Part shown: piece by piece, positions 13,319 to 51,600 of the stretch | How the letters are laid out: each line of letters starts with the position of its first letter | How positions within the stretch are numbered: the stretch's first letter is position 1 | Source: Beroe forskalii | Taxonomy: Eukaryota; Ctenophora; Nuda; Beroida; Beroidae | Reading direction: 5' to 3' | DNA length: 64,000 nucleotides | Assembly: GCA_011033025.1 (NCBI GenBank) | Contig: WFMF01000418.1 | Span: 62,001-126,000, forward strand | The notes under the pieces: generated by a model | Seen by the model: the letters and a program-made list of their open reading frames with translations, nothing else | What the model was told of the DNA's origin: nothing | Database searches by the model: none | Translations under genes and position numbers: made by a program

Positions 13319-13774
13319 TTAAAGGCCAACTGATCATTTCAAAAAAGTATTCGGTTTTTGGTCGGAATATCATCAAATATGTTTAGTATGTAAATTGTAC
13401 ATAGTTTCTGTTTACATAACACGTCGTAATTGGTGTAATCGATACTTTTCCTACAACGCTGTGACGTATGATGTGGGAAGGGGATTGCGCGCTGAATCAA
13501 TGTTATTAAGTTATTATAGCGATATGCTGCTGTACGTGTTGATACATGTCTTTTGCACTGTTTGTTTTGTGTGTTTCGGATGTTTTGTATTAAAGTATTA
13601 TCGGTTAATTATACACATGAATTGAATAATTTATGGTCTTAATTGTGCTCACTGCTCACATAATTGCCTGCATACATAATACTACTATCTTTGAAATAAG
13701 ATAATTGTGTGACACAGACATTGTTGCCATCCAATCTATGGTTCGATTTTAGACCAAAATATGTCCAAATCCAC

Positions 13775-14180
13775 GTTACGTAACGCACACTTTTTACTCG
13801 ATTTTGAGGATTCAAAGGTCAAGGCAGCCAAATTGAAGTCATCACAGCACTATTCCTTGCTTTAGAGACAAACTTCAAACATTCGTTGAGCCTATTTGAT
13901 GTTTTGAATGAGAATTGGTTGCAAAGAAAATTTTACACAAGCCATCAAAAATGTTACGTAACGCACAGGACTGGATCTAATAAAATCAATTGACAGAATT
14001 TGATCACAAAAGTCAGTTCCATGTGAGCGAATGGGGAGTTCACACTAGTTTCTAATGATAGAAGAATATATAAACTTTAAGTTTAACAATGCTTTTATTG
14101 GTTGATGCACTCCATTTTCTTTTTACCAGGCTCACATAATTTGTTACGTAATGCACAAATTGCCTGTTACGTAATGCACA
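13775..14180 (+). promoter_or_regulatory. Four GTTACGTAAYGCACA repeats inside the Kolobok left end
   Basis: Copies lie at 13775-13789 and 13953-13967 (GTTACGTAACGCACA) and at 14143-14157 and 14166-14180 (GTTACGTAATGCACA), all in the same orientation. The core TTACGTAA is also the palindrome bound by PAR-bZIP/NFIL3 factors. Their position 450-860 bp inside the TIR suggests subterminal sites for the element's own THAP transposase; this is inference. Confidence 0.55.
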
Positions 14181-15451
14181 AATTTACCTCACTGTGAATA
14201 GACCTATTTTATACTGTTCTATTGGCATAGTAAGGCCTCAATTAGATGCAGGAGCAATCAAGGTCCTCAATCTAAAAAAAATGTTGGTGGTTCTATCAAT
14301 TTCAGTCCCATATTAGGCCATCAAAGTGTAGCAAAAATTGGATCAATTTTCTGTGATTTTACTGTCATACTTAGAATATTTCATTTCTGACAGGGTTAAA
14401 GATAACTCTTGGTATCACCAGCAACTTTCCAAGATGAATAACGGCCGATTCCTATCGTGAGAGGGCCAAATTCAACGATTTTCGATTTGCTAGTAGAAAA
14501 AGATGTTTTTTTTTGTGTCTACAGAAGTGGCAAATTTTGAGAAAATCACTTTTTAGGCCATTAAAGCACAATTCTCAAGGGCATTGATATCTTATACCCC
14601 TGAATACATTTTTTGATAGCATTTAGGTTCTAGAAAAGAAAATTTATCGATTTATGCTTTGATTTTCTAATGTATGTGGGATTGAAATGACTAAATACTA
14701 ACTTTCTTTTGTAATTCTTTTCTAAGTTCAAATTTACTTTTACATTCATATCTGTAAGTTATTACAGAATTTTCTGATTAAATGGTTATTTCTTGCAGTT
14801 TCTTCATTGAAAATTAATTGGAAAAGTTTTGCATTCGTAATTCTCAACTTGCCAAGGCCATATTGTCTAAATTTGATCAGTCTAAGCTTTCACACATATT
14901 ATATGACGACCAAAAAAGTATCCAAAACAGCTGAAAATGAGTTTTCGGCATAAATGGAAATGAATTAAGGCTTTTACAAAACTTTTGCATCATTTTGTTC
15001 ACGTAAACGCACATCAATTGTCCCCAAAGAGTTTTTAAACGTCACTTCAAAATAGTTAGAGAAAGCGAGTTTTCATATTAAAATATGAATCAAACTAGAT
15101 CAAAAAGTCCACTATTAAGCAAAAATTATTCCCTTGATTACAAATATAAGCATTCTTTATGATAATTCAAAAATGCCATTAATTGAGGGCTGAACATTGT
15201 CCAAAAGTAGCCCTTACTCAATCGCGCAAATCGTCGAGGTCTTTCAATATTTTTTGATGCGGTTTTTTGCATCATTTAGAGGAAAGTCTTAGCTTTCATT
15301 TGAAGTCAAAACTTTTTGCTGGACTGATGATTTCAAATTTCAAAATTTTTCCTCGTTTTCGTGGATTTGCCCATATATTGCTATTCCCATCATTCTAATT
15401 GTATATTGGTAGGTTTACGTATTGACAATTGAACCTGTGGACTGAGGTGTA

Positions 15452-16468
15452 TTGTCAGTTTCGATGGTTGCCAGTTGTGTCGTCGGAGGATGTTCGAATA
15501 CTACATCATCTAGCAGTACTCGTCGTGACTTCCTTATATTTCATAGAGCTCCAATTGATTCGACTAGTAGATCCAAGTGGGATGGGAGACTCAATCGTCC
15601 GTTGGATAATGTAAGGAACCTCAAGAGGTATTGTGTGTGTTCAGACCACTTCTGTGATGACGATTATGAGCCGAGTTTCTTCATAAAATATAAGGTCAAG
15701 GGATATAAGAAGTTTATGAAGCTGCCTCTGAGGAACGATGCTGTCCCCAACACAGACAGAGTAACTGGGCGACAAGAGTTATTCCTATACAAGTTTGTGA
15801 AAGAAGATGTCAAGAAGACACCGAGGATAAGAATAAATAGACGTGTCCTGGCTGAAATGGACGAATACAGTTCGAAGATTGATGTGCAGGCTTTCCCATA
15901 TACGCCTTCTGGTGGGCAATCTTCGAGCACTGCCCTCGATTCAGATACACTACCAACACCAGCCACGCCTACAATGTGTGATGTGACTGAAGAATTCAGT
16001 GAATCTGATTCAGAAGTATCAGATGATGATGAGGACCAGGACTATAATCCAGAAGAAGAAGAGAGTTCTGATGAAGAAGATGAGGATAATCGACCGAGAC
16101 AATCTCATCCCAAGAAAGACAAAAGGAAAAGCCTCTTCGATTTCGTATGGACTTTTATAGCTGTGGAACAGCTCCTTGACTTTTTCAAGTGGTGCCCAGA
16201 TTGTGGATCTCCTGCAGAAGTTATCAAATGTTACAGTGTTGGATTTGCTACATGCGTACAATACAAATGTTCAGGGCCAAGTCAGCACAATGGATTGTGG
16301 AATTCATCAGGACGTCTATATAAGAGAAGATATAACATCAACATCCTATTCGCAAGTGCCATGTCTATGTGTGGAGTCAGCTACACTATGTTGAAGAGTA
16401 TTTTTGGACTGTTGAAGATACCCATAATTTGTGAGAGGAGGTATCATATAATAACTAAAAAGGGCTGA
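15452..16468 (+). CDS. Kolobok THAP-type transposase, N-terminal part
   Basis: 338 codons. Residues 1-95 form a THAP zinc finger: C5, C10, C59 and H62 (CSDHF) as C2CH ligands, the conserved W39, and an AVP box at 93-95. THAP domains bind DNA, here presumably the element's own ends. The start was chosen because C5 must lie close to the initiator. Residues about 165-215 are strongly acidic (Asp/Glu/Ser) and are followed by a basic patch and a CPDCGSPAEVIKCYS zinc-like region typical of the linker before the catalytic core. The frame ends at TGA 16466-16468, a second stop (TAG) follows at 16475-16477, and the same frame reopens at 16493. The transposase is therefore interrupted; the neighbouring frame reads protein-like (GLNPVVYTL) across the gap, which suggests a pair of compensating indels. 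Confidence 0.85.
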   Translation: MSVSMVASCVVGGCSNTTSSSSTRRDFLIFHRAPIDSTSRSKWDGRLNRPLDNVRNLKRYCVCSDHFCDDDYEPSFFIKYKVKGYKKFMKLPLRNDAVPNTDRVTGRQELFLYKFVKEDVKKTPRIRINRRVLAEMDEYSSKIDVQAFPYTPSGGQSSSTALDSDTLPTPATPTMCDVTEEFSESDSEVSDDDEDQDYNPEEEESSDEEDEDNRPRQSHPKKDKRKSLFDFVWTFIAVEQLLDFFKWCPDCGSPAEVIKCYSVGFATCVQYKCSGPSQHNGLWNSSGRLYKRRYNINILFASAMSMCGVSYTMLKSIFGLLKIPIICERRYHIITKKG

Positions 16469-16492
16469 ATCCCGTAGTTTATACTTTATAGT

Positions 16493-17659
16493 ATGTTCAC
16501 CAAGATGCGAGATACAACTATAAACTCTCTTACAGCTGGCGGATCACAGCTGCTCACACTAGTGGGGGATGGCCAATTCGACTCCCCAGGCCATTGCGCA
16601 AAGTACTGTGTTTACAGCATCTTACACAGTGCTTCAGGTAAAATCATAGACTTCATGATTACGCAAAGGGGAGAGTTCGACGAGGAATTGGAACGAGCTG
16701 GTTGTAGGGAACTTTTGAAAAAGCTGATATCAAAAGGTATAGATAAATTCAACTTCGTTACCGATCGACACAGTGGTATTCGTAAGATGATTGCGGAGAA
16801 TCCTTTATTTGAGAACATCGCTCATTTCTTTGATATATGGCATATGGCCAAGAGTGTTGGGAAGGATTTGACAAAACTCTGCAAGCTTAAAAGGAATGCT
16901 CCTCTTTTGCCGTGGGTAAAGCCAATTATAAACCATTTTTGGTATTCCTGTCGTAATAGTGGTGGTGACAAAACTAAGTTGATAGAAATGTTCCACTCGT
17001 TTCTCCTTCACATCACTAACAGTCATAAATGGACCATGGGTGCTTTCAAGAAACTTCGAGGGGACAACCTCTATCCGACATTCACTAAGGTTTTTGAGTG
17101 TGTTCATGCTAATTTGAAGATGAAAAAAGTACAACTTCGACGAGGAGCATGGCTCCAGAGATCCAGCAGAGTGTTTCAAGACCTTTTCAAGCGCATGACA
17201 AGGAAGAATCTGTCTGATGATATTCAGCACTGTGCTCATTTCGTTCACACTGGCTCTCTTGAAAACTATCATAATGTTCGCCTAAAGTACTTGCCAAAGA
17301 GAATCCATTTTACCAGAGAAACCACAGCCATTCGGTCGATGCTCACAGTGATTGAGGTCAACAGCAACATTAGAGCTGAGCAGTCAACTAAGATGTATGG
17401 TAGATGGAGCAAGCACAATGCAGAGTGGGTTCTGAAAAGAGGTTATGATGCCAAGGACTTCTCATATCGCACTGAAATAATAAACATGATAAAGAGGAAT
17501 ATTGTTGCTGGCAAGGTCCTTAGGATTGACATGAGAGAATACATTCCGACAGATCTCCCAACAATAGCTAAGAAACCTAAACCATCTAAAGAGGAACTGC
17601 TCAAACGTCATAAATCAAGAATGGAACTGTCTCAGGCTTCTCCCACTCCAAGTCTTTGA
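16493..17659 (+). CDS. Kolobok transposase, catalytic part (DDE core)
   Basis: 388 codons in the same frame as the THAP part and 24 bases beyond its stop. It carries the superfamily pattern: GDGQFDSPGHCAKYC (first Asp, residue 26), FVTDRHSGIRKMI (second Asp, residue 91), IAHFFDIWHMAKSVGK, and TGSLENYHNVRLKYLPKR with the Glu near residue 257. Together these give the DDE metal-binding triad of an RNase H-fold transposase that cuts and pastes DNA. The ATG at 16493 is probably only the first methionine after the break, because the domain expects sequence continuous with the THAP part. The C-terminus is basic (KKPKPSKEELLKRHKSR). A polyadenylation-like ATAAATAAA follows at about 17736. The catalytic residues are intact although the reading frame is broken upstream. 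Confidence 0.85.
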   Translation: MFTKMRDTTINSLTAGGSQLLTLVGDGQFDSPGHCAKYCVYSILHSASGKIIDFMITQRGEFDEELERAGCRELLKKLISKGIDKFNFVTDRHSGIRKMIAENPLFENIAHFFDIWHMAKSVGKDLTKLCKLKRNAPLLPWVKPIINHFWYSCRNSGGDKTKLIEMFHSFLLHITNSHKWTMGAFKKLRGDNLYPTFTKVFECVHANLKMKKVQLRRGAWLQRSSRVFQDLFKRMTRKNLSDDIQHCAHFVHTGSLENYHNVRLKYLPKRIHFTRETTAIRSMLTVIEVNSNIRAEQSTKMYGRWSKHNAEWVLKRGYDAKDFSYRTEIINMIKRNIVAGKVLRIDMREYIPTDLPTIAKKPKPSKEELLKRHKSRMELSQASPTPSL

Positions 17660-18022
17660 CTGAACTTTATTTTTGAAGATGATTTGACTGTTTCATTGTT
17701 TTTTCAGCTTTTAACTACTGTCTGTTACCCATGATATAAATAAAACTCTAAATCCTCAGCTCAGTGGAGCTCAGTTCTTATCTATACCACTTTTTAATAG
17801 TAACTATATGAACTTATGTACTGTCATGTGTAATGTATACTTGACTTCTTCATTGTATCTTGTCGTGTACGTAAGTTTCACAAATTATGAACGACTATTC
17901 CACTATACTAGATTACCTGCTATTTGAAATCTGTCGTTCAAACACTAATGTTATGAAAAAATAATCTGAATCCGTTGATTTGACGAATAATAATCATACT
18001 TTATCCATCGGTATTCAGTAGT

Positions 18023-18631
18023 ATGGAATCCAGCGATTTAGATCACTATGATCCACCAATGTTAGACGGCTCGCCACACGCCAGTGACGACGAAGAAGTG
18101 GATCCACCAGAGTATCAAGAATCGAGTGATGAGGACGAATATGATGGCACAGTGTTTGCTAACATAAATCACGATAGGTTACAACACACCATCGATTATT
18201 GGTGCACTTGTCAGTTCTGTGAACCAATGAGCAGTGAGAGGGAATGTGTGTGTTGTCGAGAAAGTCAACTCATAGGACGTTTGATTGGCCCTAACGAAAC
18301 GTGTGTCACACAAACTGGGCAATTCAAGGAACTTGTCCTAAATGAAGATGGCATTCGCTTTGCTCGCTACTTGTACTCCATGAACATCGAGGATGAGGAA
18401 AAGAGGGCCCGTTATTTAGCAGCAGATATCAGTAAACCATCTAAAATGAGGTTCCTTGCGTACAAACAATTCATCAATCAATTATCTTCCACGGAGTTTG
18501 ATAGACAAATTAGATACATCCTACCATCTTGTGTGGTTACTGCCATACGGCGTAAATTTCCAAATCTTGAAGGGGAAAAGTATACGGGGTATGTTACGTT
18601 ATCAACCAGTGAATGTACAAGTCTTCCGTAA
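18023..18631 (+). CDS. Protein with P2X7 'ballast'-type cysteine domain, transposon passenger gene
   Basis: 202 codons. An acidic N-terminus (residues 1-45, rich in Asp/Glu/Ser) leads into DYWCTCQFC at 58-66 and ERECVCCRE at 72-80, giving C61, C63, C66, C75, C77 and C78, then C94 and ILPSC at 166-170, and IRRKFPNLEGEKYTGY at 175-190. The order Cys-rich knuckle, ETCVTQ, F-K-LVL, hydrophobic helix, ILPSC, R-K-FP, Y-GF/GY matches the cytoplasmic C-terminal ballast domain of vertebrate P2X7 receptors, a zinc-binding domain. There are no P2X channel segments. It lies inside the Kolobok TIRs, downstream of and co-oriented with the transposase, and has its own ATG and an AATAAA at about 18637. Its role in the element is unknown; DNA or protein binding that aids transposition is possible. 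The frame is intact. Confidence 0.85.
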   Translation: MESSDLDHYDPPMLDGSPHASDDEEVDPPEYQESSDEDEYDGTVFANINHDRLQHTIDYWCTCQFCEPMSSERECVCCRESQLIGRLIGPNETCVTQTGQFKELVLNEDGIRFARYLYSMNIEDEEKRARYLAADISKPSKMRFLAYKQFINQLSSTEFDRQIRYILPSCVVTAIRRKFPNLEGEKYTGYVTLSTSECTSLP

Positions 18632-19024
18632 TGTTCAATAAACGACAATAAAAAGGTAAAAATCAGCATTATCACACCATTATTTCAAAATGTGGTTTTG
18701 TTAGAAGTTCGTTATTTTATTCATTAATTGATCCAAAAATTCGTTTTGCTTTAGAATTGAATTAAAATATTCCGTCATCGCCTATTAAACGCATCTTAAC
18801 GTGCTCCAGCTACAGGCTCTGGAATCCGGCTATAATTACAGTAGTTTGTATTGTGATATCCCACTTGTTCCCACAACGTACGTAAGCAGTGATACTTTAG
18901 CTTCCTATACTGGGCGCTGCGTATCATATATCAAGCGCGGACTTTGATACATGTTATTTATATAGTGTCGGGCGTGGTTTGGCATAATTATCTCGTAAAC
19001 TTGTAATGATCAGTTGGCCTTTAA

Positions 19025-21995: not shown

Positions 21996-22080
21996 TATAC
22001 TGATTTCTGAATATTTGAATGTTTGAATATCTATAAGTCTATGTTATATTCTTACTTGCGTAGGTGATATACAGGGAAGT

Positions 22081-24585
22081 GTGAAAGTGTTACACATGGT
22101 ACTGCCTCAGTTTATTCATACTTATGTGAGCATTTTGTTGCTATTTGCTATCATCATTTCTCAAAAAGAATTCTGTTCTGGACAAGATATGAATGGAGAT
22201 AAACCAATTGTAGGCGAGGAAGGTCAAGTTAAGCACCCAAAACACCAACCTCAACAAAATAACATAGATAGTGATACAGAGGTTAATATTGATAATGGAA
22301 AACTTTCTGATAAAGTTCTTGAAGAATCGATAGCCATTGGCTTGAATAATGAGGAAAAAGAATCTGAAGATATTCAACTATCAAGCACTCTTGAAGAAGT
22401 GGAAGAAAATACTCCAGTAGAGAAGAGCAGTGCCAAGAATACAGATGAAGAAACATTACCAGATCTAAAAAATATAGAAGAAACCAATTCAAATGAGGAG
22501 ATTTTAGAATCAATAACCATCATAAATGATGGATCAGCTAATCATAGCAGCACTGCTTCAGATGACAAGGACAATTCCAGTGATAGTGAAGAAAAAGATA
22601 ATTTTGAAATTGTTGATAATGATGATTCTGAAAAAGAAATACCATCCTTTAAAGAATACCGTGAGCAAAAAGAAAAAGAAACAGGAAATAATGAAAAGAG
22701 GAAAACTGAACAAATAATTGATGAAGCTCTTATTGAAAAGCCTAAAGGTAAACTCATCCAAAAAAATTATGCTGATAACTCCTGTGGGGCTAATATTGTC
22801 GAGAAGAAGAAGGGCTTTAAAAATTGTGATGCTATATTGAATAATAACAAAGATTTGTATGGGATGATTGCTTGTGATGGTAGCATTTGGTTTGTGGTTG
22901 AACTCTGTGACACAGTTCAAATACAAGCAATTCAACTTGCCAACCATGAACTTTTTTCATCTTCAGTTCAAGAATTCAAGATATATACTGCTGAGAATTA
23001 TCCTCCAAAGGAATGGCTCCTTATTGGAACATTTGAAACTGTTAATAACAGAGAAATACAAAAATTCGACATTGATAATCATGGTGAATATAGCAAATAT
23101 GTTAAATTTGAGAAAGTATCTTTCAGAGGCAAAGAACATTTCTGTGTGCTATCTAAATTTGGAGTTTTAGGAATGAGTATGGTAGATGAATATGAAGAGC
23201 ATCAAATGCCGCAAGAGTTAGACATTGACCCTTATGATAGACCTCTGAATGAAATTCCTGAAGATTTGACTGAAACTGGCAATGACAAATCTTTGATTGA
23301 AGGAGCAAAAGATGCTGTCAAAAATATTGTTGACAGTGCATTGAATGTTCTGGGTGTATCAAAAAATGAGGAAAGGCATGAACCATCTGAAACAAAAGAT
23401 GTCAATGCCGGTCTTGATCCTGTAAATGAAACAAGCAAAGAATTACAGGCTCCACCAACAGAAGAAATTGTTATAACCAAACTTGATAAATCAGGCAAAG
23501 AAATAAAAGAAACTCCCGTGAAAGAGTCTGAAAAAAGGCTTAAGGGGGAAGTTGCTGAACAGGTTCCTGTTAAAGAAACCCATAATGATATTAATATAGA
23601 AAGTGCTAAGAAGCCTGACAATGCAGTAAACAATCATCAGCAAGAATCAATAATGGAAGGTGTTGATCCCTCTGGAGAAAATTTGCTTGAGCAAAATTCA
23701 ATTAGTGATGCTGATTCACTGAATACATTCGAAGATAATATGGGTGATGGTGACATAAAGCTAGATTTAGAAGAAAACCGAGAAGCTATAGAAAGTCTTG
23801 ACAAGCTCAGTGATGAAAGCATCAGCAGATCCACTCTGGATAAAAATCAAGAAACAGATGGCAAAGGTGTTGTCATGACTAATAGTCCTAAGAAGAATTC
23901 AATATTTGTTGACCTTGATAAAAAGATAAGGGATCTCCAGAAGGATCTATCACTATCCAATGATTACCTGGAGACTTTATCCAGTAGGTATAAGAGAGTT
24001 GATAATTTATTTAAACCTCTTGAAAAGACTCTATCTACTGTCGATGAAGCAATTGTTGATTTTGAGAAACGTTTAAAGAGTCTGGAAGCAAAGTTTGAGA
24101 AGTTTGATAATGTTGTGGATACATATACTATTCATATGAATGAAATCAGCACCAAGTCAAACACCCTTATCACAACTACAAACCTAACTCTTTTCTTGCT
24201 TTTAATAATGTTGTATATATTTTGGAGGACCTCTAATAAAGTTCAACAAATATTACTACATGTTATGCCAAAGCTAAAGCCAAGCACTTCACCTGTAGAA
24301 AAGAATAACAATGTCCAGGAATCTCTTTTATCCCAGAAACGGGCAAAACCAAAAAAGGAATTGCCAAAAAAGGAATTGCCATCTCGAAGACAGGATAATA
24401 ATCTTGATGTGATGAAATCCAATGTTAGTGAGTCTAGTATAACAAATTCAAGACAAATGTTCACAGTAGAAAACAAGAAATCTGTTGATAATAAAAAAGC
24501 ATTACAATCTGTTCAGATGGACTTGATATACCCTCAGGCCAAATCTCCAACATTAAAAAGGAGGCCTTCTAAAAGTGTGCGGTAA
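22081..24585 (+). CDS. SUCO: SUN domain-containing ossification factor-like membrane protein (SUCO/Opt/SLP1 type)
   Basis: 834 codons in one exon. Residues 1-34 form a signal peptide (hydrophobic VSILLLFAIIISQ). Residues 35-215 are acidic and low-complexity. Residues about 217-370 are a SUN domain: NYADNSCGANIV, a Cys pair (NSCGA...FKNCDAIL), IACDGSIWFVVELCDTVQIQ, EFKIYTAENYP, W-LIGTF, and YVKFEKVSFRGKEHFCVLSK. An acidic linker follows, then a coiled coil at about 620-690 (DLDKKIRDLQKDLS...DEAIVDFEKRLKSLEAKFEK), a transmembrane helix at about 697-718 (LTLFLLLIMLYIF) and a basic cytosolic tail. Signal peptide, SUN, coiled coil and TM in this order separate the SUCO/SLP branch from nuclear-envelope SUN proteins. 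Members act in the ER and nuclear envelope and help protect secretory proteins from degradation. The GTG at 22081 reads as Met in the conceptual translation; the true start may be the ATG at 22096 or lie in an upstream exon, since an acceptor (TATACAG|G) sits just before. Confidence 0.85.
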   Translation: MKVLHMVLPQFIHTYVSILLLFAIIISQKEFCSGQDMNGDKPIVGEEGQVKHPKHQPQQNNIDSDTEVNIDNGKLSDKVLEESIAIGLNNEEKESEDIQLSSTLEEVEENTPVEKSSAKNTDEETLPDLKNIEETNSNEEILESITIINDGSANHSSTASDDKDNSSDSEEKDNFEIVDNDDSEKEIPSFKEYREQKEKETGNNEKRKTEQIIDEALIEKPKGKLIQKNYADNSCGANIVEKKKGFKNCDAILNNNKDLYGMIACDGSIWFVVELCDTVQIQAIQLANHELFSSSVQEFKIYTAENYPPKEWLLIGTFETVNNREIQKFDIDNHGEYSKYVKFEKVSFRGKEHFCVLSKFGVLGMSMVDEYEEHQMPQELDIDPYDRPLNEIPEDLTETGNDKSLIEGAKDAVKNIVDSALNVLGVSKNEERHEPSETKDVNAGLDPVNETSKELQAPPTEEIVITKLDKSGKEIKETPVKESEKRLKGEVAEQVPVKETHNDINIESAKKPDNAVNNHQQESIMEGVDPSGENLLEQNSISDADSLNTFEDNMGDGDIKLDLEENREAIESLDKLSDESISRSTLDKNQETDGKGVVMTNSPKKNSIFVDLDKKIRDLQKDLSLSNDYLETLSSRYKRVDNLFKPLEKTLSTVDEAIVDFEKRLKSLEAKFEKFDNVVDTYTIHMNEISTKSNTLITTTNLTLFLLLIMLYIFWRTSNKVQQILLHVMPKLKPSTSPVEKNNNVQESLLSQKRAKPKKELPKKELPSRRQDNNLDVMKSNVSESSITNSRQMFTVENKKSVDNKKALQSVQMDLIYPQAKSPTLKRRPSKSVR

Positions 24586-27287: not shown

Positions 27288-29167
27288 TCAAGTTTTCCCA
27301 CTTACATTAACAATGATATTACCATTGAAAACACAGAAATCTCCAAAAATCGTCTGTAGCACATTACCACCACTGCTGCTGCCATGGGGAAGGCTCATGG
27401 TCCCATTAGATTGTCCTTGTGACCGTGCAACAATCGCTCTCGATGATGGAGCAGGCCCATCACTTGAACATGGCGCAATGTCCAAGTTTATGTTACCTGA
27501 GTCTTCGGATACGTTATCCCGAGTCGCACCCGACTCATCAGTATTGGGCCGACGTCTCTTCCGATCATGACGATCTGCTGGTAGAGGAGGTCGCCGTAAA
27601 AGCCGAACCCTATCATCTGTGTTCCTTGGCAGAGTACCAGTAGAAGCTCGGGATGGCCCTGGGGCCTCATCTCCGCTGGGTACTAAATCCGTGGCCCAAT
27701 CTCCAGAGTGATCAGAGAACATTTGAGACCCACTCCAGCTGCTATCATCGTCATCTCCTGAAAATATAAATTTAGTCAGTTTACATCAGAGATGAAAATG
27801 AAAAATGCGTGAAAATTAAAATACCTTAAAAATTGGCTCATTTCGACAATACTTATGTCACATATGCATAATATTTTTTGGCATATTAAATACGTGGGTA
27901 TTCAACTACCTGGACTAGTTGCCGTCATTCTTTGAGACTGAGAAGGACGAACACGTTGCTTGGAAGGTTGTTTTTTGGCTGTGGCACGTTTGTCTGAGGA
28001 TTGTTTCTTGCCTGGAGAACCGATGATTATTGGAGGAGTTTCTTGGGAAGTATACTCTGCATTACCCATTAGTAAAATGTTCGAAATATCAGTTCCTTCG
28101 TCAACATTTAGGCAATCATAATGAACAAGGGACGATGAGGATTTGTGTCCCATGTAAGCCATGATTCTCTTTTCTGGTACTCCACTGCTACCAAGCGTAT
28201 TGACCACCATCTTTCTTACTGAAGTATTACTGATCTTGCGTCCTCCTACATCCATTTTCAGAAGATCTACCATGCTTTTCACTGTTTTGCCTAGAGTATT
28301 TACTCCAGCTGGTTTCGAATGATACCACAAATCATAACCCTCATATGGCTTCCGAAAGTCCGTTGGAGCTCTCTTGTCTACTAGCAGGAACATGGGGCTA
28401 TCAGGATGTGACATGTCTCTTGGCCGTTTCTCTGAGTACTTGAGAAATAGTGAAACTGGACATTTATCAGGATGATCAGGCAGGCATGCAAGAACTCCAA
28501 CACCATGCCGTATGTCCCTTACATCCTCTCCCTGTCTTGATTTGCTAACTCGCTCACCATTCAAAGTTAGAAATTGGTGTCCATTCACAACGATTACATG
28601 CATGTCACCGAAACACAACGACCTTTGTTCTGAGGAGCCTCTACGACCTAGAATTAACGAGAACATTTGAACTGCATTCCTCAGAGCCCTTGGGTGATGC
28701 CCTCCGGCGGCCCCATTCTCAAAGAGGAAGTTTGTCTCCAGGCTTGTGAGAGCGTCACTCTTATTCGGCAAGCTCCCTTTACCCAATTTGCGCAGGTTTT
28801 TGTTCACTGCACCAAGATGGGAAACGATATCCCTGTTTTGTGACACGGTGAATTCAATGGAAAATTTTTCCCTGAAGTAGCGTAAGATTCCGTAGTGCAT
28901 GGTTCTTAAAGAACCAGGTTCATAATGCTCCCCATCTTCTTTCAAAACCATTTGATAAAACGATTTCAGAAGCTTAATTAACAAATCTCTATCAATTGAG
29001 TCGTAGTCTTCCGAGCACTTAAACGCTTCAATCTTATATTGAGTGAGAAGATTGATTGCATTTTCTGTAGACTTTCTCGTGTTTGAGGACTGCTGATCGT
29101 GGATAAAGGCATCTAGTTGTTCGTCTGAAGCTGCTTGAAATCGGTCCATAACCTCATTAGTTAGCAT
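27288..29167 (-). CDS. Crypton-type tyrosine recombinase-derived protein, two exons
   Basis: Exon 1 is 29167-27908 (about 420 codons) ending ACTAGTCCAG|GTAGTT; exon 2 starts after TATTTTCAG at 27759 (GAGATGACGATGAT) and ends in a stop at 27288-27290. Phases agree, giving SPGDDDDSSWSG across the junction. Residues about 80-345 look like a Crypton/DUF3504 tyrosine recombinase: a helical N-terminal half, then SVRKMVVNTLGSSGVPEKR (catalytic Arg region), MGHKSSSSLVHYD (His and nucleophilic Tyr, the latter near 345). The tail is basic and Ser/Gln-rich. Exon 2 is Ser/Gly-rich and ends in alternating hydrophobic residues (TIFGDFCVFNGNIIVNVSG). Such proteins are either Crypton transposases or host genes captured from them. 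No Crypton termini were identified, so both remain possible. The frame is intact. Confidence 0.7.
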
Positions 29168-29220
29168 TCCTACTACCTAAGATAGTAAATAGGTTAGAAT
29201 CGTACAAAATATGAGCATTT

Positions 29221-45600: not shown

Positions 45601-48600
45601 GCCTTGACTTCACACAGTTCACATTTAACATATTCCTGCAAAAAGGGCTGCGTGTTTGTGTAGGCAGATACTAAATCCTCCAGTGTTCTGTGTTTCTGTG
45701 AGGAATTGCTTGATAAATGCCGCCGATGTAACCTCTCACGCAGACTTCTTATCAAATATCGCAACATGCAATGTCACAGAGGTTCGACCTTGTATCATTT
45801 GGCACATAGTACACAAAATGACGTCATGGATTTTTCTCCGTGCTGGAGGTGTGCTCCTGTTGGCCCCCACATTCAGTAGGCAGTTCGCACCAGGCTCAGT
45901 TTGTGTCAGATTCAGTGTGTCGATCTGGCTCTGCAAATGCCACATCAGAAACCACATTATTAATGGCAGTGGAATGATAAACATCCTGTGTAACCGATAA
46001 TAATATGCTGATGTCTTGAAACATATTATTAAGGGTTATTACACGAATCATAACAGTCATGATGAGATAAGGATTCCCTAACACACATTTACATATTTTG
46101 TCTGATGTACAGGTGATCTGGCTGATCGATTTCATCAATTCACCACTGTAAATCCTGATAATGACGTGACTATCAGCAGTTAATTTTCCTTAACGACCTA
46201 CATCAATAAATGGAATGCCAGGATTTTTACCAAATTATTGATGAGACTTTTTGACTTTTGTAATGATATCCTCATATTATTAGAAAGGTACTTCGTCGTC
46301 TAAAAATAAACTGAGTAAGAGATTGGAATTTTCAATGTTTCTATTGGAATAAACCCTGTTATTTTGATTACACTACCTACTTACCTAAGTACCTACCTAT
46401 GAAAAGATCTTTACAAGTTTTCAATTTGTAGACGGACAAATTCTCGAATTGTTTGTAATTTTATGAAAACAACAGACCAGAAGCCAGATGCATTTTGTAC
46501 GGCGAAAGATTACAGGCCATCTCTATGTACAATGAAAGTAGGTATCACTTTGTTATTTTGTTGCTAGGGGGTGGCTGAAATTCTTTAAATATCGTTGTTT
46601 TTATTTTATCTCTGTACCTTCATAGCATGATTTCCGGATTAACAGTGGCTTCAAATTTCAAATTGCTGGAAGAAAATTAGGACTGAAACGTAGAATTCAC
46701 TGAATACCAGAATTTCTAGTAATGATTAATTACCAAGTAATTAAGTAATTACTTGAAATAAATGTGCCTGGAAAGACTCTGAACGATGAGAAATTGAATT
46801 CACATACTTCGGCCTTTTCTTTGATTTTTGAATCTATTTTTAGAAATAAGGACATTAGCAAAACAGAAAGAAAACGCTCAGTCTCATGATTATTCACTAC
46901 AGCTGATCACATACACTCAGTTTTTTTGATAAGAAACTGTCTATAAGAAACTTAGCCTAGGATTTCCGAAAGTTGTGATTTTATCCGTAGAATTTCGGAA
47001 AATTAAGAAACTTAAACGATTTACAATTAAGAAATTAAGAAACTTCTAGCCTAGAATTTCGAAATTTGTGTATAAAATCCTATTGCAACTGAAATTCTTT
47101 TAACATGAAACGTGTTTACATTTCTTGGTAAACGACCCCAAATTTTGATTGTGAACATTTCGAAACTAGGTAATCAAGTACTTCCATTAACATTTTTATT
47201 ACCAAGCACAAAACAGAAATTTAGAAATTGTTGTTGAGACAGGACACTATTACAGTTCCATATCTACCAAAAGTTCCAAGCATTAAGCTCGGCTAGGTAA
47301 ATCTTTATAGGATTTAGATATTATCTAAATTTTTGAACTTTTTGAAGAACATTTGATGCAGATCCCTGAACATTAATGTATACAGTTGCATAAATCTTTT
47401 AAGATAGGTATGTGCTTAAAAGTGTATAATTTACCTGAAAATATTAGAAGGTTCGATTCTAATCCTCAACTACAGTCTACAAAGTAGGTTCCTATATTGG
47501 AAATTTGGTAAACATTTTGCTGTACGGTATGTCGGTATGTAGAATTAAGAAACCGATTAAGAAACTTTTAGGCTCAAAATCGTGAAAAAATAAGAAACTT
47601 GTAGCCTAGGTTTTCAATAAGTTTCTTATAAAAAAAACTGAGTGTACATTAAAGAACTCCAGCTTTCAATAAAAGAATAAAACCATCTTTTTGTCATCTA
47701 CAAACCACTGTGCAGAATTAGTGCTGTGATTTTATCCCTTCATATCTCTGTATTATGTATTGAGGACAGACTAAAAACTATGCAATTATGCATTTAATAT
47801 GCATTAAGTTATGAAAGTGCGCATCGGATGCCTGAGTCAAGAGTAACATTTTCCTGTCCTACAGGCCACAGTGTTTACATTTCTTGGTAAACATATGTTT
47901 TGAAATGTAGACGATTCATATAAACTTATTAATATACTTGTGGACCATTACTTTATTAATTGGAAACTGTAAAGCATACTTCATCGTTGGTTTCACGTTC
48001 TTCCGAGCTCGTATACCATCTAATTCCGAATAGTAATTCAGAATAAACCCAGATCTTCATAATATGTTAATGTTAGTATTCAAGTATCTAATTTGAGTAA
48101 GAAAGTTACTCATGAAAATCTATCTCTATTTGTCTGTTTTCAAGAGACATCCAATACTCATTACTCAAGTACTGACTGGATTCCTTTAAACTCCAATATC
48201 TGACTGAATGAATTGTGATGGAGTGAGTCGTAGAAATTTTCCTCTATCAAAAACTCTAACTCTCTAAAGCATACTCTAACTCTCTAACAAAGCACTAACT
48301 CTAACTCTAAAACACTTCTATCATGAACCATGGAGGGTGGAGTTAGGAGTGGGTGGGTGGGTATCTACTGGAGTGAGACTAACTCTAACACTAACCCAGG
48401 GAGGGTGGAGTTAGGAGTGGGTGGGTCTCTACTGGAGTGAGACTAACTCTAACACTAACCCAGGGAGGGTGGAGTTAGGAGTGGGTGGGTGGGTCTCTAC
48501 TGGAGTGAGACTAACTCTAACACTAACCCAGGGAGGGTGGAGTTAGGAGTGGGTGGGTGGGTCTCTACTGGAGTGAGACTAACTCTAACACTAACCCAGG

Positions 48601-51600
48601 GAGGGTGGAGTTAGGAGTGGGTGGGTGGGACTCTACTGGAGTGATACTAACTCTAACACTAACCCAGGGAGGGTGGAGTTAGGAGTGGGTGGGTGGGTCT
48701 CTACTGGAGTGAGACTAACTCTAACTCTAACCCAGGGAGGGTGGAGTTAGGAGTGGGTAGGTGGGGCTCTACTGGAGTGAGACTAACTCTAACTCTACCC
48801 CAGGGAGGGTGGAGTTAGGAGTGGGTGGGTGGGGCTCTACTGGAGTGAGACTAACTCTAACACTACCCCAGGGAGGGTGAAGTTAGGAGTGGGTGGGTGG
48901 GTCTCTACTGGAGTGAGACTAACTCTAACACTAACCCAGGGAGGGTGAAGTTAGGAGTGGGTGGGTGGGGCTCTACTGGAGTGAGACTAACTCCTACACT
49001 AACCCAGGGAGGGTGGAGTTAGGAGTGGGTGGGTAAGTCTCTACTGGAGTGAGACTAACTCTAACCCAGGGAGGGTGGAGTTAGGAGTGGGTGGGTGGGT
49101 CTCTACTGGAGTGAGACTAACTCTAACACTAACCCAGGGAGGGTGGAGTTAGGAGTGGGTGGGTGGGTCTCTACTGGAGTGAGACTAACTCTAACACTAA
49201 CCCAGGGAGGGTGGAGTTAGGAGTGGGTGGGTGGGTCTCTACTGGAGTGAGACTAACTCTAACCCAGGGAGGGTGGAGTTAGGAGTGGGTGGGTGGGTCT
49301 CTACTGGAGTGAGACTAACTCTAACACTAACCCAGGGAGGGTGGGGTTAGGAGTGGGTGGGTCTCTACTGGAGTGAGACTAACTCTAACACTAACCCAGG
49401 AGGGTGGAGTTAGGAGTGGGTGGGTGGGTCTCTACTGGAGTGAGACTAACTCTAACACTAACCCAGGGAGGGTGGAGTTAGGAGTGGGTGGGTGGGTCTC
49501 TACTGGAGTGAGACTAACTCTAACTCTAACCCAGGGAGGTGGAGTTAGGAGTGGGTGGGTGGGTCTCTACTGGAATGAGACTAACTCTATCACAAAGCCA
49601 GGGAGGTTCGAGTTGAGAGTGGTTGGGTGGGACTCTACTGAAGTGAGACTAACTCTAACACTACCCCAGGGAGGATGGAGTTAGGAGTGGGTGGGTGGGT
49701 ATCTACTGGAGTGAGACTAACTCTAACTCTACCCCAGGGAGGATGGAGTTAGGAGTGGGTGGGTGGGTCTCTACTGGAGTGAGACTAACTCTAACACTAA
49801 CCCAGGGAGGGTGGAGTTAGGAGTGGGTGGGTGGGTCTCTACTGGAGTGAGACTAACTCTAACACTAACCCAGGGAGGGTGGAGTTAGGAGTGGGTGGGT
49901 GGGCCTCTACTGGAGTGAGACTAACTCTAACTCTAACCCAGGGAGGGTGGAGTTAGGAGTGGGTGGGTGGGTCTCTACTGGAGTGAGACTAACTCTAACT
50001 CTAACCCAGGGAGGATGGAGTTAGGAGTGGGTGGGTGGGACTCTACTGGAGTGAGACTAACTCTAACACTACCCCAGGGAGGGTGGAGTTAGGAGTGGGT
50101 GGGTGGGTCTCTACTGGAGTGAGACTAACTCTAACTCTACCCCAGGGAGGGTGGAGTTAGGAGTGGGTGGGTGGGTCTCTACTGGAGTGAGACTAACTCT
50201 AACTCTAACCCAGGGAGGGTGGAGTTAGGAGTGGGTGGGTCTCTACTGGAGTGAGACTAACTCTAACACTAACCCAGGGAGGGTGGAGTTAGGAGTGGGT
50301 GGGTGGGTCTCTACTGGAGTGAGACTAACTCTAACTCTACCCCAGGGAGGGTGGAGTTAGGAGTGGGTGGGTGGTCTCTACTGGAGTGAGACTAACTCTA
50401 ACTCTAACCCAGGGAGGGTGGGTTAGGGTGGGTGGTCTCTACTGGGTCTCTAACTCCTAACCCCCCAGGGAGGTTGGAGTTAGGAGTGGGTGGGTGGATC
50501 TCTACTGGAGTGAAACTAACTCTAGCACTAACCCAGGGAGGGTGGAGTTAGGAGTGGGTGGGTGGGTCTCTACTGGAGTGAGACTAACTCTAACTCTACC
50601 CCAGGGAGGGTGGAGTTAGGAGTGGGTGGGTCTCTACTGGAGTGAGACTAACTCTAACTCTAACCCAGGGAGGGTGGAGTTAGGAGTGGGTGGGTCTCTA
50701 CTGGAGTGAGACTAACTCTAACTCTACCCCAGGGAGGTTGGAGTTAGGAGTGGGTGGGTGGATCTCTACTGGAGTGAGACTAACTCTAACACTACCCCAG
50801 GGAGGTTGGAGTTAGGAGTGGGTGGGTGGGTATCTACTGGAGTGAGACTAACTCTAACTCTACCCCAGGGAGGGTGGAGTTAGGAGTGGGTGGGTGGGTA
50901 TCTACTGGAGTGAGACTAACTCTAACTCTAACCCAGGGAGGGTGGTGTTAGGAGTGGGTGGGTGGGTCTCTACTGGAGTGAGACTAACTCTAACTCTACC
51001 CCAGGGAGGTTGGAGTTAGGAGTGGGTGGGTGGATCTCTACTGGAGTGAGACTAACTCTAACACTACCCAGGGAGGGTTGAGTTAGGAGTGGGTGGGTCT
51101 CTACTGGAGTGAGACTAACTCTAACACTAACCCAGGGAGGGTGGAGTAAGGAGTGGGTGGGTGAGTCTCTACTGGAGTGAGACTAACTCGGACTGGAGGT
51201 GGTCTGATGGTACACCCTACAACGCTGGTCTCCTCTCACCACGGATAACTCGTATTCCTGAGCAACCAGACAAGAGCTACAGAGTCCTGCTGGAAGTGGA
51301 CAGTGGCTTGTTCAGGATCACAAGTGGCTCCGAACCTGCTCCATATGTCTGCAAATATACTGCTACCATGGGTAAGTTGACATGGTGCCAAGGTTACGGA
51401 TGCCTTAGCAATGTCATGGTGACTGTACTGCCATTGAAACTGGTTTCATTCATATGGCCTATGGTTGTTATCTTACACTTTAGTCTTCAGGCGTGTTGTA
51501 ACTGGTAAACTGCACAAGTGCTAACTTGAGAAATATTTAGGATAAGGTGTTAGCTGTTATTTTGTATAATCAGTTAGCAGGTATGCGTTGACGCTGGTAC

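Follow-up and report, generated by a model that had tools for sequence, protein, structure and literature searches.

A probable KolX accessory gene with a P2X7 ballast domain in a Kolobok transposon of the ctenophore Beroe forskalii

The element and its two genes

We analyzed a 64,000-nucleotide stretch of the Beroe forskalii genome (GenBank assembly GCA_011033025.1, contig WFMF01000418.1, positions 62,001 to 126,000 of the forward strand), called the window below. Within it lies a Kolobok (Kol0-type) element of 5,698 bp at 13323..19020 on the plus strand, bounded on both sides by terminal inverted repeats (TIRs) and TTAA. Two genes were found in the element: an interrupted THAP-DDE transposase and, downstream of it, a small intact gene at 18023..18631 (plus strand). 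Judging from sequence comparison, the small gene is probably the KolX gene of a Kolobok DNA transposon from the Kol0 lineage, here in a ctenophore genome, coding for an accessory protein of the element and not for a passenger. KolX is the second protein that Kol0-lineage Kolobok elements encode beside the transposase, as described by Kojima and Bao in 2022 (PMC9587614; this and the other papers cited are represented here by the available part of their text).

The KolX open reading frame has an ATG start and 202 codons (215 from stop to stop), and its product has an acidic N-terminus and a C-terminal ballast domain (P2RX7_C; 18167..18592, plus strand). An earlier sequence-only reading of this DNA had reported an intact 202-codon frame with the pattern WCTCQFC...ECVCC...ETC...LPSC, and these cysteines were confirmed in 18023–18631. 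The seven cysteine codons start at 18203, 18209, 18218, 18251, 18254, 18302, and 18530, and the residues (C61, C63, C66, C77, C78, C94, and C170) are invariant in 16 of 16 aligned rows. Rows for this alignment and for the KolX tree were chosen for open frames, and C379, for which the frame as read came to 4 residues, was left out of the tree. That reading had also ascribed the cysteine layout to the P2X7 ballast domain. A search with the Pfam profile PF20478 (P2RX7_C) bears this out, with an E value of 4.3e-18 and 66.4 bits at a curated cut-off of 23.5, and the predicted fold of KolX likewise appears to resemble the P2X7 ballast. When KolX was compared with PDB sequences using phmmer, human P2X7 was the best of five matches (E 4.3e-4). 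A further protein from other sequence sets (P0001; five contigs, the longest of 5,852 bases) is 89% identical to the window KolX.

The ends of the element are well defined. The left TTAA target-site duplication (13319..13322) is followed by a 16-bp TIR, AGGCCAACTGATCATT (13323..13338, plus strand), and the right TIR (19005..19020, minus strand) is its exact complement and adjoins the right TTAA (19021..19024). Therefore, the statement of the sequence-only reading that the gene lies inside exact, TTAA-flanked TIRs is correct. When 25 x 26 pairs of TTAA-anchored ends in the flanks were compared (14 bp, up to 2 mismatches), the AGGCCAACTGATCATT pair alone matched. The element shows the 4-bp TTAA duplication of Kolobok, and its ends, 5'-AG...CT-3', follow the 5'-RR / YY-3' rule that we took from PMC9587614. 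A TTAA pattern of our own devising was uninformative, as control patterns gave more matches, and it was set aside.

The transposase frame spans 15464..17659 (plus strand). Its THAP domain (15476..15751, plus strand; residues 5–96) matches PF05485 with an E value of 4.4e-11, and contig C603 has an open frame of 783 codons (stop to stop) with which the window frame shares 49.9% identity. The THAP transposase that had been named as the neighbor of KolX is thus present. The catalytic core (16565..17272, plus strand) has GDGQFD at 16565, TDRH at 16760, DxxH at 16832–16843, and ENYH with its E at 17261. This is the Kolobok order GDG, TDRH, DIWH, ENYH, with the C/DxxH motif between the second D and the E; the catalytic D, D, and E were assigned by eye, with PMC9587614 as a guide. 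The frame is interrupted at 16447..16500 (plus strand; outer limits approximate, set by eye) by TGA at 16466–16468, TAG at 16475–16477, and apparent local frame slips, clustered in about 50 bp; outside this patch it aligns with C603 in one frame. Because the transposase is interrupted, this copy of the element is probably dead. The break could also be only apparent, if errors of assembly or base calling arose next to an A5G3 run. The confinement of every lesion to one patch of roughly 50 bp adjoining a homopolymer, with the remainder in a single frame, would fit such errors. However, a single error there would not suffice, and we consider this account unlikely.

The 5' non-coding part of the element holds four copies of TTACGTAAYGCAC (13776..14179, plus strand; at 13776, 13954, 14144, and 14167), where 0.06 would be expected. 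Allowing up to 1 mismatch, no further copy occurs in the window, and among 78 loci the motif is present in one only, L039, which overlaps the window element. At a guess, these copies are possible protein-binding sites.

Linkage of KolX and transposase across the genome

Next, we searched the whole genome with a ballast profile (76 matches) and with the transposase core (54 matches). For the count of pairs, the 76 profile matches and 18 hand-picked from the 81 of another ballast search gave 92 ballast loci, the 54 transposase matches were merged into 41 loci, and the pairing limit was set at 6.5 kb. A ballast locus lies within this distance of 29 of the 41 transposase loci, against 0.24 expected. 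In an earlier count, with a limit of 10 kb and without the profile matches, 27 of 81 KolX matches were paired. Fourteen control genomes gave no ballast profile match, though the eight that are named are prokaryotes and make a weak control. The sequence-only reading had staked its proposal on a profile match and on the gene being present in at least some other copies of the transposon, and both were found.

The gene order of the pairs, taken with the nearest KolX, has two forms only: at 12 loci KolX lies downstream on the same strand, and at 17 it lies upstream and is read from the opposite strand. Contigs C603 and C493 have the two genes arranged as in the window element. TIRs, where seen, differ among the elements bearing both genes. 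Three pairs of contigs (C581/C203, C329/C427, and C196/C469) are 98–99% identical, so copies within a family are not independent. In the KolX tree, the opposite-strand order falls in two places (three changes, with long branches flagged). We therefore do not claim that gene order tracks the tree.

KolX also occurs in elements in which no transposase match was found. A non-autonomous Kolobok of 1.77 kb, with TIR AGGTGCAGTCCGGG and TTAA ends, is present in seven full-length copies (L058:1508-3274 and L059–L064), of which four had their ends read out, and many shorter matches have the same ends. Such KolX-only elements are non-autonomous derivatives; a transposase would presumably mobilize them in trans. 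One of the seven copies has a KolX frame open over its whole length, and in four the ballast stretch is unbroken. Six copies are 98–100% identical to the query, leaving little time for decay. We considered these elements as evidence of an independent role for KolX and rejected them as such, since six of seven have a frame break; they are weak evidence either way. A shorter derivative of the window element itself, of 584 bp, was seen on contig C920 (L055:4224-4807) with the same TIR and no coding part seen; its right flank reads TCAA instead of TTAA.

Three other features of the window lie outside the element. A Sad1/UNC domain (PF07738, E 1e-23) is encoded in a long open frame at 22027–24582, 3 kb from the element. 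At 27905–29176 on the minus strand, an open frame has a weak match to DUF3504 (E 3.5e-6) that falls just below the cut-off (27.6 against 29.7 bits); we take it to be, perhaps, part of a tyrosine-recombinase mobile element. A tandem array of 43 copies of 68-bp units at 48328–51189 lies in a stretch of high GC with strong GC skew.

Constraint and rival accounts

The sequence-only reading had called KolX a passenger that, being intact beside a broken transposase, may be conserved for a role of its own. Neither part of that argument was supported. KolX is the regular second gene of Kol0 elements in the available text of PMC9587614, and its constraint is similar to that of the DDE part of the transposase. 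Among three related elements (C490, C603, and C493), the proportion of nonsynonymous differences (pN) in KolX is 0.28–0.35 and that of synonymous differences (pS) is 0.75–0.88. For the DDE part of the transposase (379–384 codons, with the THAP half left out of the comparison), pN is 0.29–0.30 and pS is 0.86–0.90. By these values, the two are constrained to much the same degree. As to the lesions, the 2.8 kb of coding DNA has one lesion patch, and KolX makes up 21.7% of this length. A single patch placed by chance would therefore leave KolX untouched in about 78% of cases, so an intact KolX is hardly evidence of a separate role.

Several observations weigh against KolX being a regular accessory gene of these elements. 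It was not detected at 12 of the 41 transposase loci, so KolX is perhaps not in every family, and two of these 12 have long open transposase frames (696 codons on C271 and 781 codons on C370). As to the question, raised in the sequence-only reading, of whether the two genes always travel together, the linkage stands and a strict rule does not. Conversely, 63 of the 92 ballast loci have no transposase match within 6.5 kb, many of them short or broken. The proposed comparison of rates found both genes similarly constrained and yielded no ratio: the synonymous rate (dS) is saturated, and the only sign of constraint is that pN falls well short of pS. For C329/C427, a close pair of KolX genes, the nonsynonymous rate (dN) is 0.011 and dS is 0.027, from too few changes to use.

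A probable host gene of this genome, on contig C697 (G000:C697:22450-24594; L053:451-2595), also has the ballast domain. It is a single-exon frame of 714 amino acids, with the domain at its C-terminal end (E 1.3e-17). A test that picked up the TIRs of three elements gave no TTAA-anchored inverted repeat within 3 or 6 kb of this frame, although old, decayed TIRs would escape it, and the genome-wide transposase-core search gave no match on the contig. Three database relatives (P0024–P0026, 520–591 amino acids) have the same layout, with a VYRPxKPKL motif in the N-terminal part and the seven-cysteine domain at the C-terminal end. Equivalents of P2X7 R546, H547, Y550, and R578, read by eye, are present in all four proteins. 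The named relative is Bolinopsis microptera "mucin-2-like isoform X1," and P0024 is close enough for the same genus. The gene thus has the marks of a domesticated gene, with no TIRs or transposase detected nearby and conservation in another species. The four proteins form one clade with 100/100 support and a long stem. The tree has no root and is compatible with capture in either direction, from transposon to host or from host to transposon. Upstream of the ballast gene, C697 has frames that by eye resemble arylsulfatase and WD40 repeats.

This gene lends some color to the idea that a host ballast gene was caught by chance in one transposon copy, which would make KolX a host insertion. However, ballast loci neighbor 29 of the 41 transposase loci, in elements whose TIRs differ where seen; the two genes stand in the window order on C603 and C493 as well; and KolX is published as the second Kol0 protein (PMC9587614). 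Chance capture is therefore extremely improbable. Another account would have the KolX of this insertion leave the service of the element and be kept by the host, which would suit an open KolX beside an interrupted transposase. Against such a domesticated copy stand the roughly 78% chance that the single patch misses KolX, the TIRs and target-site duplication that are still exact, and the breaks in six of seven KolX copies in elements lacking a transposase, and we regard it as very unlikely. We thus favor KolX as an accessory gene of a Kol0-lineage element.

Relation to known systems and significance

The window element closely parallels the Kol0 elements described in PMC9587614 (Kolobok-1_XT and relatives). 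Both have two genes, TTAA duplications, 5'-RR ends, and a DDE transposase with DxxH, and the second gene of both has the ballast fold with seven conserved cysteines. In the available text of that paper, the Kol0 hosts are vertebrates, annelids, cnidarians, and sponges; Ctenophora is not listed, and neither the two gene orders nor the KolX-only non-autonomous elements described here were found. We found no published ballast-bearing Kolobok in ctenophores, in a search that reached few subscription journals and not bioRxiv. In line with a ctenophore source, a 120-residue S1 segment of a glutamate receptor on contig C395 has as its top four PDB matches three ML032222a sequences (E 3.8e-32 to 5.2e-32; from Mnemiopsis, PMC12226733) and 4zdm of Pleurobrachia (1.6e-22), ahead of the next match at 2.8e-17. 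With the full 433-residue segment, vertebrate kainate receptors rank first (1.5e-43) and ML032222a eleventh (1.5e-41); ctenophore receptors may be the sole epsilon-class receptors in the PDB, and the top match may thus reflect receptor class more than phylum. The short Nanor / ZCD proteins (PANTHER PTHR36981; Rump 2020, PMC7016195) resemble KolX in that most are small with a C-terminal zinc-coordinating cysteine domain. In the available part of that paper, the word "transposon" is absent, and the domain was sought in Mnemiopsis and not found.

KolX shares its sequence profile, cysteine layout, and predicted fold with the human P2X7 ballast (residues about 476–595), and equivalents of P2X7 R546, Y550, C572, R578, F581, and P582 are present. 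Unlike the P2X7 receptor, it is a stand-alone transposon protein, unfused to a P2X channel. A search of the genome with PF00864 (P2X) gave no match at E 0.01; the control genomes were silent too, so this is uninformative on the absence of P2X, and P2X genes of a divergent branch have been reported in ctenophores (PMC10620158).

The element is a two-gene cassette: beside a THAP-DDE transposase, which would cut and paste at TTAA, it encodes KolX, a small protein in which an acidic N-terminus precedes a ballast domain bearing seven putative zinc-site cysteines. We propose that KolX acts as an accessory protein of transposition, working with its own transposase. How KolX might assist is suggested by two other systems. 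The P2X7 ballast has guanosine triphosphate or diphosphate (GTP/GDP) and zinc sites whose role is called unknown (PMC9859053). The P element transposase requires GTP, bound by its insertion domain (PMC7776569). The window transposase shares THAP, DDE, and membership in the C/DxxH group with P element and THAP9 transposases. KolX might thus bind guanine nucleotide and serve the THAP-DDE transposase as a cofactor in trans, by analogy with the GTP-binding insertion. However, the P element transposase holds GTP with a domain of its own, whereas KolX is a separate protein whose nucleotide binding is putative. Furthermore, just two of the five rat P2X7 GDP contacts have equivalents in KolX (R546 as R143 and R578 as R176), while H547, R574, and K583 have none. 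We therefore hold this cofactor role to be a long shot.

The central idea, which takes the P2X7 tail to be a transposon protein, has been published before, and the window mainly extends it. PMC9587614 proposes that KolX was captured to give both zebrafish Nanor and the tail of P2X7; the sequence-only reading was right to suggest that a mobile-element protein offered receptors a route to the domain, and had been preceded in 2022. The extension consists of the presence of ballast-bearing Kolobok elements in a ctenophore, an early-branching phylum for which the domain was reported absent (in the available text of PMC7016195), and the linkage at 29 of 41 loci in two gene orders, with some non-autonomous elements having KolX and no transposase. 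The gene on C697 points to a further host capture of the ballast domain, besides P2X7 and Nanor. If KolX did serve as a nucleotide cofactor, the GTP/GDP site of P2X7 would be left over from transposition, and a ctenophore host gene would have captured the domain once more. Binding of guanine nucleotides for the transposase would then give an evolutionary reason for an unexplained nucleotide site in a receptor of medical importance.
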